NCBI RefSeq assembly: GCF_004403515.1
Contig: NZ_SOHH01000068.1
Location: 1 to 64,000 of the forward strand
DNA from: Cryobacterium fucosi
Lineage (GTDB): Bacteria; Actinomycetota; Actinomycetes; Actinomycetales; Microbacteriaceae
Reading direction: 5' to 3'
DNA length: 64,000 nt
The notes below the pieces were generated by a model. That model saw only the letters and a list, made by a program, of their open reading frames with translations, did no database searches and was not told where the DNA came from. Positions 2,553 to 28,024 of the stretch are shown in pieces; within the stretch, counting starts at the first letter, position 1, and every line of letters starts with the position of its first letter. The translations under genes and the position numbers were made by a program.

Positions 2553-3979
2553 GCGACGAGCGAGGCCGGGGCCGGAAGCAGGAACGCCCGCGCACGCAAC
2601 ACGATTTCGTCCAGCCGGCCAGGCGGGTCGCCTATGAGGTGATCGCGGCCGTGCGCGAATCCGATGCGTACGCCAACCTGCTGCTGCCCACCCGCATCAA
2701 ACGGGCCGCCCTGAACACGGCGGATGCCGCCCTGGCCACCGAGCTGACCTACGGCACCCTGCGGATGCAGGGGTTCTACGACCGGGTCATCGCCGAAGCG
2801 GCCGGCCGGCCGGTCTCCGCGATCGACCCCGCCATCCTCGACGTGCTGCGACTCGGCGCCCACCAGCTCCTCGCGACCCGGGTCGCGACCCACGCCGCGG
2901 TGAACGAATCGGTCGAGCTGGCCAGGCAGGTCGGCTCGCGGGCCGCCACCGGCTTCACCAACGGGGTCCTGCGCACCATCTCCCGGTCCAGCACCGAGGA
3001 ATGGCGCGAGCGGATCCTCGCCGACGCCACCGGCGACGACGACCGTCTCGCAATCGAACACTCCCACCCGGTGTGGGTCGTCCGCGCCTTCCGGCAGTCC
3101 CTCCGGATCGAGGGGCGCGAAGCCGAACTCGATGACCTGCTGATCGCCGACAACGCGGCGCCACGGGTGAACATGGTCGCCCTCCCCGGACTCGTCCCCG
3201 CGGGGGAGACGGCAGGCCTCGGCGAGGCCAACACGTTCTCACCGACCGGTTTCGTGCTTGCCGGCGGAGACCCGGTGCACCTCATGCACGACCACAACGG
3301 CCGGATCCGCGTGCAGGACGAGGGCTCGCAGCTGGCGGCCCTGGCCCTGAGCCGGGCCCGCCCGGCCGAAAAGGGGGAACGCTGGCTCGACCTCTGCGCC
3401 GGCCCGGGCGGCAAGGCGGCGCTGCTCGCCGCCGAGGCCCTCGCCGTGGGCGCCGAGCTCGTGGCCAACGAACTCGTCCCCGCCCGGGCCACGCTTGTGC
3501 GCAAGGCGCTGGCCGCCGTTCCGGCCGCGGTCCCGGTCTGGGAGGAGGACGGCACGACCTTCGGCGACGCCCACCCCGAGGCCTTCGACCGGATCCTCCT
3601 CGACGCGCCCTGCACCGGCCTCGGCGCCCTGCGCCGCCGCCCGGAGGCGCGCTGGCGCAAACTGCCCCGGGATGTCGCCGAGCTCAGCGACCTGCAGTCC
3701 GGCCTGATCGACGCCGCCCTCGGCGCGCTCAAGCCCGGCGGCATCCTCGCCTACGTCACCTGCTCGCCGCACATCGCCGAAACCAGGGGCATCGTGGCCA
3801 CGGCGCTGAAGAAGTGGGGCGGCGCTGTTCGCACCCTCGACACCGCGGGCGTCCTACAGGGCCTCGCGAGCTCCCCGCTCGACCTGCCCGGCGACGGCGG
3901 CAGCGGCAGCGTACAACTCTGGCCGCACCGGCACGGCACGGACGCGATGTTCATCACCCTGCTCGAACGCACCGCCTAG
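2549..3979 (+). CDS. rsmB: 16S rRNA (cytosine-C5)-methyltransferase RsmB
   Basis: Methylates C967 of 16S rRNA (E. coli numbering) using S-adenosylmethionine. The 476-residue protein has an N-terminal NusB-like RNA-binding domain (about 20-150) and a C-terminal Rossmann methyltransferase. The SAM loop reads DLCAGPGGK, and the two catalytic cysteines are Cys355 in APCTGLG and Cys405 in VTCSPH. I chose the ATG at 2549 because it overlaps the fmt stop; an in-frame start at 2513 would lie deep inside fmt. The C-terminus is complete, and the gene is followed by a 164-bp intergenic region. Confidence 0.94.
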   Translation: MSDERGRGRKQERPRTQHDFVQPARRVAYEVIAAVRESDAYANLLLPTRIKRAALNTADAALATELTYGTLRMQGFYDRVIAEAAGRPVSAIDPAILDVLRLGAHQLLATRVATHAAVNESVELARQVGSRAATGFTNGVLRTISRSSTEEWRERILADATGDDDRLAIEHSHPVWVVRAFRQSLRIEGREAELDDLLIADNAAPRVNMVALPGLVPAGETAGLGEANTFSPTGFVLAGGDPVHLMHDHNGRIRVQDEGSQLAALALSRARPAEKGERWLDLCAGPGGKAALLAAEALAVGAELVANELVPARATLVRKALAAVPAAVPVWEEDGTTFGDAHPEAFDRILLDAPCTGLGALRRRPEARWRKLPRDVAELSDLQSGLIDAALGALKPGGILAYVTCSPHIAETRGIVATALKKWGGAVRTLDTAGVLQGLASSPLDLPGDGGSGSVQLWPHRHGTDAMFITLLERTA

Positions 3980-3983
3980 CCCG

Positions 3984-4071
3984 CGTCGAATTCGACGGAG
4001 TTTTTGACCTTCCGGGCATATAAGTGCTCGATTTGGGCGATTTCGGCGCAAATCTCCGTCGAATTCGACGG
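3984..4071. repeat. Twin-palindrome intergenic element
   Basis: Two copies of the 14-bp palindrome CGTCGAATTCGACG lie at 3984-3997 and 4057-4070. Extended, the left copy ends in GGAG and the right begins with CTCC, so the outer sequence CTCCGTCGAATTCGACG forms a 17-bp inverted repeat. The segment between them (about 60 bp) is visibly richer in A and T than the neighbouring genes. It looks like a small mobile-derived or REP-like element, or a paired operator; the sequence alone does not decide. No coding sequence is visible in it. Confidence 0.7.
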
Positions 4072-4131
4072 GTAGTTCGCGGGGCGGGTGCGGGCAGCGG
4101 GCTGCGGGAACGGTGGGCGGATGCCACGGGT

Positions 4132-4137
4132 TAGGGT
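4132..4137 (+). promoter_or_regulatory. -10 hexamer TAGGGT, leaderless rpe
   Basis: TAGGGT ends six bases before the rpe ATG, so transcription would begin at or next to the start codon. No Shine-Dalgarno sequence precedes this ATG and no clear -35 box is seen. Confidence 0.55.
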
Positions 4138-4143
4138 GAAGTC

Positions 4144-4812
4144 ATGCCCTCCAGGATCAACCCGAGCATTCTCGCCGCCGACTTCGCCAACCTCGAACAG
4201 GAACTGGGGCGCATCCGCACCGCCGACCTCGTGCACGTGGACATCATGGACAACCATTTCGTGCCGAACCTCACGTTCGGCCCGCCCGTCGTCTCCCGCC
4301 TGGCCCAGGTCTCGCCACTGCCGTTCGACGTGCACCTGATGATCGACAACCCCGAGCGGTGGGCGCCCGGCTACGCGGAGGCCGGGGCCTTCTCGGTGAC
4401 CTTCCACGCCGAGGCCACCACCAACCCGGTCGGCCTGGCGCGGAAGCTGCGCTCGATCGGCGCGCGCGCGGGCATCGCCCTCAAGCCGGGCACCGCGGTC
4501 GAGCCCTACCTCGAACTCCTGCCCGAATTCGACCAGGTCCTGGTGATGACCGTCGAGCCGGGCTTCGGTGGGCAGAGCTTCATGCCGTCGACCATGCGCA
4601 AGCTGAAGACGCTCTCCGAGAACGTCCGCAAGGGCGGCCTCGACGTCTGGCTGCAGGTCGACGGCGGCATCACCGAGGACACCATCGTGATCGCCGCCGA
4701 GGCCGGCGCCGACACGTTCGTCGCCGGTTCGAGCGTGTTCAACGCCGCCGATCCCGCCGCCCAGATCGCCCGGCTGCGCGCCGCCGCGGACGAACACCGG
4801 CACGCGCACTAG
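4144..4812 (+). CDS. rpe: Ribulose-phosphate 3-epimerase
   Basis: Interconverts ribulose 5-phosphate and xylulose 5-phosphate in the pentose phosphate pathway. The 222-residue TIM barrel has family signatures: INPSILAADFANL at the N-terminus, VHVDIMDNHFVPN with metal/acid-base Asp33, the MTVEPGFGGQ loop, and QVDGGI with Asp173. Its neighbours are hisE downstream, and the other pentose phosphate genes are about 43 kb away on the other strand. The start has no upstream ribosome-binding site but sits six bases after a -10-like hexamer, so the mRNA is probably leaderless. Confidence 0.96.
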   Translation: MPSRINPSILAADFANLEQELGRIRTADLVHVDIMDNHFVPNLTFGPPVVSRLAQVSPLPFDVHLMIDNPERWAPGYAEAGAFSVTFHAEATTNPVGLARKLRSIGARAGIALKPGTAVEPYLELLPEFDQVLVMTVEPGFGGQSFMPSTMRKLKTLSENVRKGGLDVWLQVDGGITEDTIVIAAEAGADTFVAGSSVFNAADPAAQIARLRAAADEHRHAH

Positions 4813-4818
4813 TAACCT
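4813..4818 (+). promoter_or_regulatory. -10 hexamer TAACCT, leaderless hisE
   Basis: TAACCT begins directly after the rpe stop codon and ends six bases before the hisE GTG. The spacing matches the other leaderless genes of this window. Confidence 0.5.
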
Positions 4819-22739: not shown

Positions 22740-25427
22740 GTGTTGGATTCCGAAAAGCCTACCCTGATGATCATCGACGGCCATTCCCTGGCCTACCGGG
22801 CGTTCCATGCCCTCCCGGTCGACAGTTTCCAGACCCGGGACGGGCAGCACACCAACGCCATCCACGGGTTCATCTCGATGCTGCTGAGCCTGCTGCGCAA
22901 CGAGAAGCCCACCCACATCGCGGTGGCCTTCGACATCTCCCGGTTCTCGTTCCGCACCCGCGAGTACCCCGACTACAAGGGGACCAGGGCCAGCACGCCC
23001 AGCGAGTTCATCGGGCAGGTCCCGCTGCTCCAGGACGCCCTCGCAGCGATGAACATCACGACCCTGACCAAGGAAGATTTCGAGGCCGACGACATCCTCG
23101 CGACCCTGTCCGTGCGCGGCACCAACGAGGGCTACCACGTCCTCGTCGTCTCCGGCGACCGCGACACCATCCAGCTCGTCAACGAGAACGTCACCCTGCT
23201 CTACCCGGCCAGCCAGGGTGTGTCCGCGCTGACCCGGTACGACCCCGAGCGCGTGATGGAGAAATACGGCATCCGGCCTGCGCAGTACCCGGATGTCGCG
23301 GCGCTGGTCGGCGAGACCAGCGACAACCTGATCGGCATCTCCAAGGTCGGGGAGAAGACGGCCGTGAAATGGCTGGGGCTCTACGGCAGCCTCGACGGGA
23401 TCCTCGAACACGCGGACGAGATCACGGGCGTGGTCGGTAACAACCTGCGCGAGCAGAAGGAGAACGCGATCCGCAACCGGCGGCTGAACCGGCTGGTGAC
23501 CGACCTCGACCTGCCCGTGCAGATCACCGACCTGGCCCGCGGCGCGATCAACGAACCGGCCGTGCGCGACGTCTTCGGCCGGCTCGAATTCAAGACTCTG
23601 CTCGACCGGGTGATCAAGCTCGAGGGCGGCGCGGCCGGCGTCGACGGCGACGCCGCCGCGGCGCCGTCCCCCGCTGTGGAGGCCGTCCCCGCTCCCTCGG
23701 CCCCTACCGCCCAGGACCTGCTCGACGAGGAACTCGGCGCCTGGATCAGCCGGGCGGTGGCCGGATCACCGGTTGGAATCGGCCTGTGCGTCGAGGTGCA
23801 GGACGGCAAGGCGATCGGCTTCGGACTGGCCGGCCCCACCGAGACCGTCAACCTGCCCTGGCAGCCCGGACGCACCGACTACCTCCCGCTCGAGGAATGG
23901 CTCGCGAGCGACTCGCCCAAGATCATGCACGACGCCAAGCACCAGATCAAGGCGCTGCGCCGCAGCAACCTGGCCTTCACCGGGCTGGCCACCGACACCC
24001 TCGTCGCCGGCTGGCTGCTGCGTCCGGGCGGCCCGGACAAGACCCTCACCGACCTGGTCACCCGTTACCTCGACGAGACACTGCCCGTGCACGACCCGAA
24101 CCAGCTCGTGCCGGACGAGGACGAGGCCGGGGGAGTCCCCATGCAGGCGTGGTACACCTACCGCCTCGCCCAGGTCCTGGCCGCGCAGCTCGACGCGGGC
24201 TCGCGGCGCGTGCTGACCGGCATCGAGATGCCCACCCTGATCGCGCTCGTGGACATGGAGCTCGCCGGGGTCGCCGTCTCGCACGACGAGCTGGCGGCCC
24301 TGTCCGCCCAGCTCGGCGAACGCTCCGCAGCCCTGGCCGCGGGCGCCTACGCCGAGATCGGCCGTGAGGTCAACCTCGGATCGCCCAAGCAGCTCCAGGA
24401 GGTGCTCTTCGAGCAACTCGGCATGCCCAAGACCCGCGCGAACAAGACCGGGTACTCCACGGATGCCGGCGCCCTCGCCGACCTGCAGGCCAGCAATCCG
24501 CACCCCTTCCTCGACCTGCTCCTGCAGCACCGCGACGCGACCAAGCTGCGCCAGATCGTGGAGACCCTCGACAAGGCCATCGACGGGACCGGCCGCATCC
24601 ACACCAACTACGTGCAGATCGGCACGGCCACCGGGCGCATCTCGTCGACGGACCCCAATCTGCAGAACATCCCCGTGCGCACGGAGGAGGGTCGCCGCAT
24701 CCGCGCCGCCTTCCACGCCGGGCCCGGCAGCGAGTGCCTGCTCACCGCGGACTACTCCCAGATCGAGATGCGCATCATGGCGCACCTCTCCGCGGACGCC
24801 GGCCTGATCGAAGCCTTCAACGCCGGAGAGGACCTGCACCGGTTCGTCGGCGCCAGCGTGTTCGGCGTCGCCCCGGCAGACGTCACTCCCGAAATGCGCA
24901 GCAAGGTCAAGGCCATGTCCTACGGCCTCGCCTACGGGCTGAGCGCCTTCGGGCTGTCGCGCCAGCTTCGGATCGACACGAAGGAAGCCAAACAGCTGAT
25001 CGGCGACTACTTCGCCCGGTTCGGGGCGGTGCGCGACTATCTCAGGCACGTCGTCGAACAGGCCAAGCTCGACGGCTACACCGCCACCATCTTCGGCCGT
25101 CGCCGTCCCTTCCCCGAGCTGCACAGCGCCAACCGGGTGCTCCGCGAGAACGCGGAACGCGCTGCCCTCAACGCCCCGATCCAGGGTTCAGCCGCCGACA
25201 TCATGAAGATCGCCATGAACGGCATCGCCGACGACCTGGCCGAGGGCGCGCTCGAGTCCCGGATGATGCTCCAGGTGCACGACGAACTGATCTTCGAGGT
25301 GGCACCGGGAGAGTGGGATGCCCTCCGCGCCGTCGTCACGCACCGGATGGAGAGGGCGGCCGACCTGCTCGTGCCGCTCGAGGTCCAGGTCGGCCGGGGC
25401 GCGAACTGGGACGCCGCCGCGCACTGA
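22740..25427 (+). CDS. polA: DNA polymerase I
   Basis: Repair and Okazaki-fragment polymerase, 895 residues. The N-terminal 5'-3' exonuclease/flap domain (about 1-290) has LMIIDGHSLAYRAF, FDISRFSFR and ADDILATL...SGDRDTIQLV. The polymerase domain has DYSQIEMRIMAHLS (motif A), the RSKVKAMSYGLAYGL O-helix region and QVHDELIFEV (motif C). The middle domain lacks proofreading residues: where E. coli has DTE there is CVE, and the other two metal aspartates are also replaced. This is usual for actinobacterial PolA. The start is GTG at 22740. Confidence 0.97.
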   Translation: MLDSEKPTLMIIDGHSLAYRAFHALPVDSFQTRDGQHTNAIHGFISMLLSLLRNEKPTHIAVAFDISRFSFRTREYPDYKGTRASTPSEFIGQVPLLQDALAAMNITTLTKEDFEADDILATLSVRGTNEGYHVLVVSGDRDTIQLVNENVTLLYPASQGVSALTRYDPERVMEKYGIRPAQYPDVAALVGETSDNLIGISKVGEKTAVKWLGLYGSLDGILEHADEITGVVGNNLREQKENAIRNRRLNRLVTDLDLPVQITDLARGAINEPAVRDVFGRLEFKTLLDRVIKLEGGAAGVDGDAAAAPSPAVEAVPAPSAPTAQDLLDEELGAWISRAVAGSPVGIGLCVEVQDGKAIGFGLAGPTETVNLPWQPGRTDYLPLEEWLASDSPKIMHDAKHQIKALRRSNLAFTGLATDTLVAGWLLRPGGPDKTLTDLVTRYLDETLPVHDPNQLVPDEDEAGGVPMQAWYTYRLAQVLAAQLDAGSRRVLTGIEMPTLIALVDMELAGVAVSHDELAALSAQLGERSAALAAGAYAEIGREVNLGSPKQLQEVLFEQLGMPKTRANKTGYSTDAGALADLQASNPHPFLDLLLQHRDATKLRQIVETLDKAIDGTGRIHTNYVQIGTATGRISSTDPNLQNIPVRTEEGRRIRAAFHAGPGSECLLTADYSQIEMRIMAHLSADAGLIEAFNAGEDLHRFVGASVFGVAPADVTPEMRSKVKAMSYGLAYGLSAFGLSRQLRIDTKEAKQLIGDYFARFGAVRDYLRHVVEQAKLDGYTATIFGRRRPFPELHSANRVLRENAERAALNAPIQGSAADIMKIAMNGIADDLAEGALESRMMLQVHDELIFEVAPGEWDALRAVVTHRMERAADLLVPLEVQVGRGANWDAAAH

Positions 25428-25435
25428 CCCCGGTT

Positions 25436-25480
25436 CTGAACCCACCCTGAACGACCCCGAACCGTTCAGGGTGGATTCAG
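25436..25480. promoter_or_regulatory. Candidate OmpR-family operator of four phased half-sites
   Basis: CTGAA occurs at 25436 and 25447, and TTCAG at 25465 and 25476. Each pair is spaced exactly 11 bp, and the pairs are inverted about a centre near 25458. The inner part, CCACCCTGAACG (25442-25453) and CGTTCAGGGTGG (25463-25474), is a perfect 12-bp inverted repeat. Two boxes 11 bp apart are the usual site of OmpR/PhoB-type regulators, and such a regulator is encoded two genes downstream. The same inverted repeat could also serve as the polA terminator, but no T-run follows. Confidence 0.6.
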
Positions 25481-25491
25481 CGGCCGTCCCC

Positions 25492-25497
25492 TACCGT
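25492..25497 (+). promoter_or_regulatory. Possible -10 TACCGT of the PepSY gene
   Basis: TACCGT lies 11 bp after the last TTCAG box, which would place that box over the -35 region, as at activator-dependent promoters of OmpR-type regulators. Assignment is tentative. Confidence 0.35.
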
Positions 25498-25547: not shown

Positions 25548-25868
25548 ATGAAGAAGACAGGCAAGGCGGCCGCCGCCGGACTGGCCGCCCTGGTCGGCGT
25601 CGGCACGGTGGGCGGCCTTCCGGCCGCGAACGCCGAGGGATCCGGCCAGAGCGACTCCGAGACGGCCATCACCGGCCCGGCGCTCGCCCAGGCGAGTGCC
25701 GCGGCCCTGGCCGCGACCGGGCAGGGCCGGGTCACCGACACCGAGGTCGGCGACGAGGAGAGCTACTATGAGGTCGAAGTGACCTTCGACGACGGCACAG
25801 AGGTCGATGTGCAGCTTGACCGGGCATTCCAGGTCGTCGCTGAGCCTAAGGGCGGCGCCGACGGCTGA
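25548..25868 (+). CDS. Secreted PepSY-domain protein
   Basis: A 106-residue protein with a Sec-type signal peptide: KK at the N-terminus, an Ala/Gly/Val-rich core (about 8-24) and a likely cleavage after AANA (about residue 29). There is no lipobox cysteine. The rest is one PepSY domain (about 40-98) with the pattern TGPALAQASAAALAATG, YYEVEVTFDDGTEVDVQLD and the closing QVV. PepSY domains are thought to inhibit proteases or sense the envelope. AAGGAG at 25535-25540 precedes the ATG. It stands directly before a two-component pair and behind a phased operator, so it is probably a target of that system. Confidence 0.85.
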   Translation: MKKTGKAAAAGLAALVGVGTVGGLPAANAEGSGQSDSETAITGPALAQASAAALAATGQGRVTDTEVGDEESYYEVEVTFDDGTEVDVQLDRAFQVVAEPKGGADG

Positions 25869-25952: not shown

Positions 25953-26651
25953 ATGAAAGTGCTCCTGGTGGACGACGACGAGAAGATCACGGCCGCCCTC
26001 GGGCGCGGCCTCCGCGCAGAGGGCTTCACCGTGGACGTCGAGCGCAACGGAATTGACGGGCTCTGGCGAGCCGGCGAGGGCTGCTACGACGTCATCGTCC
26101 TGGACATCATGATGCCGGGCCGGAACGGGTTCCTGGTCTGCGCCGATCTCCGCGCGGCCGAGAACTGGACGCCCATCCTGATGCTGACCGCGAAGGACGG
26201 TGACCTCGACGAGGCGGAGGCGCTGGACACCGGCGCGGATGACTACCTGGTGAAGCCGTTTTCCTTCCCGGTTCTCGTGGCACGCCTGTACGCCCTGATC
26301 CGCCGGAGCAATTCGGCGACGCCGCCGCCGAGCGGGGTGGCCGACCTCCGGATCGACCCGCTCCACCACCGGGTGTGGGTCGGTGAGGCGGAACTCACCG
26401 TCACCTCCCGGGAGTTCGACGTCCTGCACTACCTGGTCCACCGCACCGGACAGGTGCTGTCCAAGCAGCACATCCTCGACGGCGTCTGGAGCGGAGACTT
26501 CGACGGCGACCCGAATATCGTCGAGGTGTACGTCGCCAGGCTGCGCCGCAAGCTCGAGCAGCACGATTGCCACGCCTCGATCGACACCGTACGCGGCGCG
26601 GGCTATCGGCTGGCGGCACGAACGGTGCCGGGCAGCCCCGGGCCTCGGTAG
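25953..26651 (+). CDS. OmpR-family response regulator
   Basis: A 232-residue transcription factor. The receiver domain (1-115) has DDDEK at the N-terminus, phosphoacceptor Asp51 in VLDIMMPGRNG and the Lys of LVKPFSF. The winged-helix DNA-binding domain (about 130-225) has ELTVTSREFDVLHYLVHR, the recognition region GDPNIVEVYVARLRRKL and the wing DTVRGAGYRL. It is followed by a histidine kinase after 11 bp. Its likely target is the phased operator at 25436-25480. The signal sensed is unknown. Confidence 0.94.
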   Translation: MKVLLVDDDEKITAALGRGLRAEGFTVDVERNGIDGLWRAGEGCYDVIVLDIMMPGRNGFLVCADLRAAENWTPILMLTAKDGDLDEAEALDTGADDYLVKPFSFPVLVARLYALIRRSNSATPPPSGVADLRIDPLHHRVWVGEAELTVTSREFDVLHYLVHRTGQVLSKQHILDGVWSGDFDGDPNIVEVYVARLRRKLEQHDCHASIDTVRGAGYRLAARTVPGSPGPR

Positions 26652-26662
26652 AGTCGGCTGCC

Positions 26663-28024
26663 GTGCGGGCGACCTGGCTGATGGGAAGTGTGCGCTGGCG
26701 GATCACCGCCGCCGCGACGCTGGCCGTGCTCATCGTCCTGGCCGTCACCGGCGGAGCCCTCGTCGCCGCCCAACGGTCGGTGTTGACCGACAACGTCGAT
26801 GAGGTCCTGCATCGACACAGCACAGCGATCATCGCCGCACTCGACGCCGGAACGTTGCCGGCCGTCATCTCCGGGCAGGGCGACGACGAATCCTTCGCCC
26901 GGGTGACGGATGTGGCGGGCCGGGAGATCGCCGCCACCGCCCGCTCCCTCGCCGACGCGCGCCTGGCCGGCAGCCTGGACTCCGGTGACGGACTCCAGAC
27001 CATCCGGTCGATTCCCGGCCCGGAGTTCCGGGTTCTGTCCACGACCCGGAGCGGCCTCCGCGTGCTCGTCGGCACCCCGTTGGACGACGTCCAGGACAGC
27101 GTCGACGCCCTCCTCGCGGGCCTGTTCGTCGCGGTCCCCGCAGCGTCGCTGCTCCTGGCGGCTGTCGTCTGGCTGCTGGTCGGACGGGTGCTGCGGCCGG
27201 TCGAAGCCATCCGCAGCCGGGTGGCCGCCATGTCCGGCTCCACCCTGGACCGGCGGGTGCCCGAACCGAACACCCGGGATGAGATCGCCAGGCTCGCGCG
27301 CACCATGAATGACATGCTCGAGCGTGTGGAGACGGCCGGCGCCAGGCAGCGTCGATTCGTGGCGGATGCCTCGCACGAGTTGCGCACGCCGCTGGCCCGG
27401 ATCCGTGCCCAGCTCGAGGTCGATCGCGCCCACCCCGAGGCGGCGGACGTCGCCGCCACCCAGCGGAGCGTGCTCGACGAGGCCGACACCCTGCAACGGC
27501 TCATCGACGATCTCCTCCTCCTCGCCCGGGCCGACAGCGTCCGCGAACCGCGCCAGGACGAGCCGGTCGACCTCGACGACGTCGTCATGGACGAAGCGCG
27601 CCGGGTGCGCGGCACCCGACCGGTCTCGGTCGACGCCGGCAGGGTGTCCGGCGCGCAGCTCCGTGGCGACCGGGACCGGCTCGCACGGGTCGTGCGCAAC
27701 CTGCTCGACAATGCGGTGCAGCACGGCGGCCCGCACATCGTGATCAGCCTGAGAGAGGTCGACGGGCAGGCCGAACTGACCGTCGCGGACGACGGGGCCG
27801 GAATCCCGGCGGACCAGCACGACCGGGTCTTCGAACGGTTCGCCCGGGTCGACGAGTCCCGTACCCGTGACGCCGGCGGCAGCGGCCTCGGCCTGGCGAT
27901 CGCCCGGGAAATCGTCGCCGCCCACGGCGGGTCGATCGTGATCGACCCGCTCCACCGGCCGGGTGTGCGGTTCGTCGTGACCCTTCCGACCGGGGGGAAG
28001 ACGCCGCCGCCGCCGGTGTCTTAG
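26663..28024 (+). CDS. Sensor histidine kinase with HAMP domain
   Basis: A membrane kinase of 453 residues. Two membrane segments (about 14-36 and 150-173) flank an extracytoplasmic sensor of about 110 residues. HAMP follows, then HisKA with phosphoacceptor His238 in DASHELRTPLAR, and the ATPase domain with NLLDNAVQHG, VADDGAGIP, FERFAR and GGSGLGLAIARE. I took the GTG at 26663; an ATG at 26681 is possible, and neither has a strong ribosome-binding site. It pairs with the preceding regulator. The stop codon TAG is also the first half of the next gene's -10 hexamer. Confidence 0.92.
   Translation: MRATWLMGSVRWRITAAATLAVLIVLAVTGGALVAAQRSVLTDNVDEVLHRHSTAIIAALDAGTLPAVISGQGDDESFARVTDVAGREIAATARSLADARLAGSLDSGDGLQTIRSIPGPEFRVLSTTRSGLRVLVGTPLDDVQDSVDALLAGLFVAVPAASLLLAAVVWLLVGRVLRPVEAIRSRVAAMSGSTLDRRVPEPNTRDEIARLARTMNDMLERVETAGARQRRFVADASHELRTPLARIRAQLEVDRAHPEAADVAATQRSVLDEADTLQRLIDDLLLLARADSVREPRQDEPVDLDDVVMDEARRVRGTRPVSVDAGRVSGAQLRGDRDRLARVVRNLLDNAVQHGGPHIVISLREVDGQAELTVADDGAGIPADQHDRVFERFARVDESRTRDAGGSGLGLAIAREIVAAHGGSIVIDPLHRPGVRFVVTLPTGGKTPPPPVS

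Follow-up and report, generated by a model that had tools for sequence, protein, structure and literature searches.

The two-component genes UipRS of Microbacterium, a genus of the same bacterial family, adjoin an exported PepSY gene, an arrangement shared with the window, that is, the whole 64-kb stretch of DNA that was analysed. According to a review, several Microbacterium species carry UipRS upstream of UipA, and no role of UipRS in sensing uranium had been demonstrated (PMC8963506). UipA spans the membrane once and has tandem PepSY domains, whereas the window encodes a single small PepSY protein. The window PepSY gene lies upstream of its two-component genes, unlike UipA. The window protein matched UipA by sequence in the PDB (7ath, E 0.007). 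Its best PDB matches were 2kgy and 2lra, named 'possible exported protein' (E 6e-8); 2kgy is presumably Rv0603 of M. tuberculosis, beside tcrA. The TcrA system of that organism (Rv0600c-Rv0603) has an exported PepSY protein, like that of the window.

In Vibrio cholerae, a small secreted PepSY protein, a regulator and a kinase (DbfQRS) are described as one positively autoregulated operon, with the PepSY protein acting on the sensory domain of the kinase (PMC12714742). The gene content resembles that of the window; the organism is distant and the likeness concerns the genes. MprA of Corynebacterium glutamicum is an actinobacterial envelope-stress regulator described as positively autoregulated (PMC12113857) and in this is comparable to the circuit proposed here, but its motif, TKTTAAGAAM, differs. 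PhoP of M. tuberculosis, an OmpR-family regulator, is described as a tandem dimer on TCACAGC direct repeats, in which a 7-bp motif and a 4-bp spacer give the same 11-bp period as in the window array (PMC4832192). The half-site sequence of PhoP differs from that in the window. The window regulator presumably also differs from PhoP at two base-contacting helix positions, Ser216 and Tyr220. A description of the operator presented below was not found in the literature searched, which comprised titles and abstract openings and covered few subscription papers.

The window encodes, all on the plus strand, polA (22740..25427), a secreted PepSY protein (25548..25868; NF051432, NCBIfam PepSY_MTB) of 106 aa with one PepSY stretch, an OmpR/PhoB-family response regulator (25953..26651) and a HAMP/HisKA/HATPase sensor histidine kinase (26663..28024, start codon uncertain). 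The regulator has a receiver and a Trans_reg_C domain with the recognition helix GDPNIVEVYVARLRRK. These identities agree with the original prediction. Between the PepSY and regulator genes, positions 25866-25945 fold into a strong hairpin (-44.1 kcal/mol, z -2.4), which might act as an attenuator of read-through into the regulator gene.

Upstream of the PepSY gene, the four boxes of the original prediction were confirmed at their exact positions: CTGAA at 25436 and 25447 and TTCAG at 25465 and 25476, in 11-bp phase. They are not a product of chance: allowing up to three mismatches, the four-box pattern matched once in the window against 0.00 expected from 100 shuffles. The right pair, TTCAGGGTGGATTCAG (25465..25480, plus strand), points toward the PepSY, regulator and kinase genes. 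The left pair reads TTCAGGGTGGGTTCAG on the minus strand (25436..25451). The end coordinate of the predicted feature, 25497, is the last base of a -10 hexamer, TACCGT (25492..25497, plus strand), located 11 nt 3' of the right pair. In its two half-sites, direct repeat and phase of about 11 bp, in the nearby regulator gene and in its constant placement relative to a -10, the right pair has the features of an operator of the OmpR/PhoB family. By comparison with related loci, the array is very probably an autoregulatory OmpR-family operator (right pair) next to the orphaned operator of a lost divergent gene (left pair).

Relatives were found with the window PepSY protein and form three sets: 29 loci from the family (the window not counted), 51 named loci taken from genome contigs (441,453 bases) and 26 new, held-out loci drawn from the class. 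The nearest named relatives belong to Cryobacterium. A perfect TTCAG-N6-TTCAG lies upstream of PepSY on the strand of the gene at 26 of the 29 family loci (exceptions L015, L021 and L037). With G or T as the first half-site base, KTCAG-N6-KTCAG occurs within 600 bp upstream at 38/51 named loci, at three more with one mismatch, and at 18 of the 26 held-out loci. The box is absent at 10/51 named and 8/26 held-out loci. All 36 perfect copies in the named loci face a PepSY (22), regulator (10) or lipoprotein gene (4) within 260 bp, as do 69 of the 73 copies with K, where 3.2% of strand positions would qualify. The spacing of six is unique; gaps of 1-5 and 7-13 give between none and three perfect copies each, and two facing copies in total. 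The right pair is thus a conserved predicted operator, KTCAG-N6-KTCAG, in front of PepSY genes across Actinobacteria. In Nocardioides szechwanensis, two PepSY genes separated by about 2.6 kb both have a perfect box of their own (L072, 2340 and 4932).

The tables described below include 64 box-bearing loci. Excluded were L017, L025, L030, L031, L034-L037 and L041, in which the window PepSY protein had no BLAST hit at 1e-5 and which all have a perfect box except L037, and also L019, L020 and L032, in which the perfect box and the domain matched by BLAST are over 600 bp apart. The window copies L002, L003 and L006 and the loci L038, L042 and L043 were also left out, and the duplicate genomes L044-L047 were counted once via L071, L073, L086 and L101.

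When the 64 loci were aligned on the box alone, a -10 motif, NANNNT, emerged unsearched 11 nt after the box, with A in 58/64 and T in 60/64. The same distance was found in all 18 box-bearing held-out loci; the background frequency of NANNNT is 2.4% per offset. The original prediction had placed the repeat at the -35 of the PepSY gene, and this is supported by the conservation of its sequence, its phase and its distance to the -10. With a spacer of 17 nt, the -35 would fall between the half-sites. At this position the window has GGGTGG, which does not resemble TTGACA; this speaks for activation rather than repression. The adjacent OmpR/PhoB-type regulator would bind the right pair, probably as a dimer in head-to-tail arrangement that covers the -35 region, and activate PepSY from TACCGT. 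Read-through from this promoter would then also activate the regulator and kinase genes themselves.

The left pair follows a different rule. Conservation of all four boxes in relatives had been proposed as a check; it holds for the right pair, which is general, and fails for the left pair, which tracks divergent neighbours. A left pair occurs at 13/64 boxed loci, at a distance of 19 to 43 bp from the right pair. Neighbour orientation was taken from homology calls, since a first, cruder gene caller was judged unreliable. Where a divergent neighbour was recognised (11 loci: 8 regulators and 3 lipoproteins), the left pair is always present and faces that gene. It is present at only 2 of 30 co-directional loci, the window and L052, the latter despite a co-directional kinase upstream. 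The Fisher test gave p 2.5e-8 for this difference, an optimistic value because the rule was formed on the same loci. The left pair is absent at all 23/64 loci without a neighbour named by homology. With the cruder gene caller, the link between left pair and divergence is weaker (10/22 vs 3/42, p 6e-4). NANNNT follows 10 or 11 nt after all 11 divergent left pairs and after neither of the other two. Among the held-out loci, L154 is the only divergent boxed locus; it fails the strict left pattern, fits it with one mismatch, and by eye has CACCGT 11 nt behind it.

The layout of a divergent bidirectional promoter, with genes on both sides reading away from the array, is found in L071, L073 and L101 and at the eight loci with a divergent regulator; in the window, polA is co-directional. 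The left pair is best described as a separate predicted operator of a divergently transcribed gene, not as half of a compound site. The mirrored layout, considered unusual in the original prediction, is then ordinary divergent-promoter architecture and needs no special four-site circuit. Its other statement, that the left pair faces polA, holds for the direction: the pair points at the 3' end of polA. The window has no NANNNT at +10 or +11 of the left pair and so no -10 toward polA, and an antisense promoter into polA was ruled out on this ground.

Cooperation of two regulator dimers on the mirrored repeats could instead form a compound operator for tight PepSY autoregulation. Both pairs are intact in the window and left pairs recur at the 13 loci, in agreement with such a site; their rarity at co-directional loci, the variable spacing between the pairs and the retention of the right pair alone in most relatives make it unlikely.

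The divergent gene that fits the separate operator was found in the nearest relative, L071 (Cryobacterium HLT2-28), whose PepSY protein is 84% identical to that of the window. There, a 274-aa lipoprotein gene (3935-4759, lipobox by eye) lies between polA and the array, reads away from the array and is faced by the same left-pair sequence as in the window. The alignment of the window with L071 starts at CGGTTCTGAAC and extends rightwards; the sequence to its left is missing, and polA directly adjoins the array. Only 8 bp (25428..25435), a presumed deletion scar, separate polA from the left pair, compared to about 927 bp with the lipoprotein gene in L071. The lipoprotein gene is absent from the window's own genome, which is 99.99% complete, and present in 5/57 genomes of the genus. 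In L073, a divergent lipoprotein gene in the same place (4020-4816) is split between two frames, possibly by a frameshift or an assembly error, and may be a sign of gene decay in Cryobacterium. L101 has the lipoprotein gene beside an array that is located elsewhere relative to polA.

Since the divergent lipoprotein gene was lost, the left pair is, as far as sequence can tell, the orphaned half of a divergent promoter. The gene would have been deleted up to the edge of its operator, so that what remains is an operator with no promoter, directed at the 3' end of polA; the deletion is known from one genome. The left pair may well be functionless now. Another Cryobacterium with a PepSY orthologue, L086, has the right pair and lacks the left pair. 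G199, taken as its genome because locus L046 has the same box in the same place, has no lipoprotein match. Together, these suggest that loss of the lipoprotein gene makes the left pair dispensable.

Homologues of the lipoprotein adjoin PepSY or two-component genes in many other loci, which indicates a real partner of the module. The two Cryobacterium copies belong to no Pfam or NCBIfam family, and five other homologues had no credible Pfam match. The AlphaFold model of the L071 lipoprotein is all beta (pLDDT 81.6). Foldseek gave weak matches to YmcC-like and DUF1849 proteins, with a TM by query length of 0.42 at best.

Autoregulation by the regulator at 25953, the model of the original prediction, is well supported on the sequence level by the conserved operator, its phase and its distance to the -10. 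The boxes could also be bound by another regulator encoded elsewhere: the box also occurs beside PepSY genes without two-component genes in the stretch examined (e.g., L072, L085 and L102). This is very unlikely, as the box tracks two-component adjacency. Within the genus, the box accompanies all 9 tandem-PepSY genes that have a kinase immediately upstream and none of the 16 that lack one. The regulator gene itself is faced by the box ten times. The box also covaries with the recognition helix of the adjacent regulator. Box-bearing loci beside their own regulator have the helix N(I/V)VEVY. At L094, L109, L117 and L121, the adjacent regulator is more distant (42-46% identity), the helix is SNVVDVY or a near variant, and no KTCAG box was found. 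These loci represent a related subfamily of PepSY two-component systems, probably with a different operator. We assume that the E-to-D difference in the helix aligns with the base-contacting Glu215 of PhoP from M. tuberculosis. The base contacts given for this PhoP are Asn212, Val213, Glu215, Ser216, Tyr217 and Tyr220 (PMC4832192). With four loci, the covariation of helix and box is supportive only.

The opposed pairs can form an RNA hairpin (25436..25480, plus strand). Together with the six spacer bases, which match almost fully as well, the arms make up an inverted repeat of 18 bp with a single mismatch, which folds with -35.1 kcal/mol (z -5.7). The hairpin potential arises because both arms copy one motif in opposite orientation. 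Most other mirrored arrays also fold strongly; L079 and L090 do not. Conservation of the inner inverted repeat alone, together with a T-run, had been named as the sign of a polA terminator; the right direct repeat was found to be conserved instead. An intrinsic terminator for polA is the least likely reading, although the strong hairpin directly follows the polA stop and no other terminator-like site is nearby on the plus strand, because a T-run is absent, the hairpin follows from the opposed motif copies and is missing in L079 and L090, the conserved element is the direct repeat, and in L071 the stops of polA and of the convergent lipoprotein gene are 16 bp apart and no array lies at this site. 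A minor role of the hairpin, perhaps as an incidental polA 3'-end structure, in ending polA transcripts is possible but unsupported.

In the 3.44-Mb genome, TTCAG-N6-TTCAG has only four copies, and two are the window array. By eye, one of the others is inside a uvrA-like gene and one upstream of a membrane-protein gene. The latter, TTCAGGTTGTCTTCAG (L039 4556-4571; C52:8555 in the own genome), has a third TTCAG further on and, by eye, no -10 at the expected spacing. The pattern of operator plus -10 had four matches in the own genome and a control pattern had one. The four are the window array, a site in coding sequence that by eye looks like rnc/fpg, and two sites that are repeated nearly identically in other genomes of the genus and were unplaced in genes. 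A wider regulon was rejected for this genome; the four matches support no target beyond the array. In genome G097 (L040 2850-2955), several CTGAA/TTCAG pairs are flanked by a divergent regulator of 39% identity and by the gene of a secreted protein, DUF5666-like by eye. The same box is apparently used there by a more distant two-component system.

A bolder interpretation, rather improbable at present, would make KTCAG-N6-KTCAG-N11-NANNNT an undescribed, phylum-wide operator code, through which UipRS/TcrA-type PepSY two-component systems would regulate both themselves and an uncharacterised beta-rich lipoprotein. The orphaned operator would then be reused as a regulator-dependent roadblock or as a hairpin against polA read-through. 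The surprise is moderate because neither the kind nor the mechanism departs from ordinary OmpR-family biology. The autoregulatory operator with its orphaned counterpart provides a testable operator sequence and promoter geometry for actinobacterial two-component systems linked to PepSY proteins. The box allows the prediction of target genes from sequence and points to a recurrent, unnamed lipoprotein partner. The window itself would be an example of an operator that outlived its gene.
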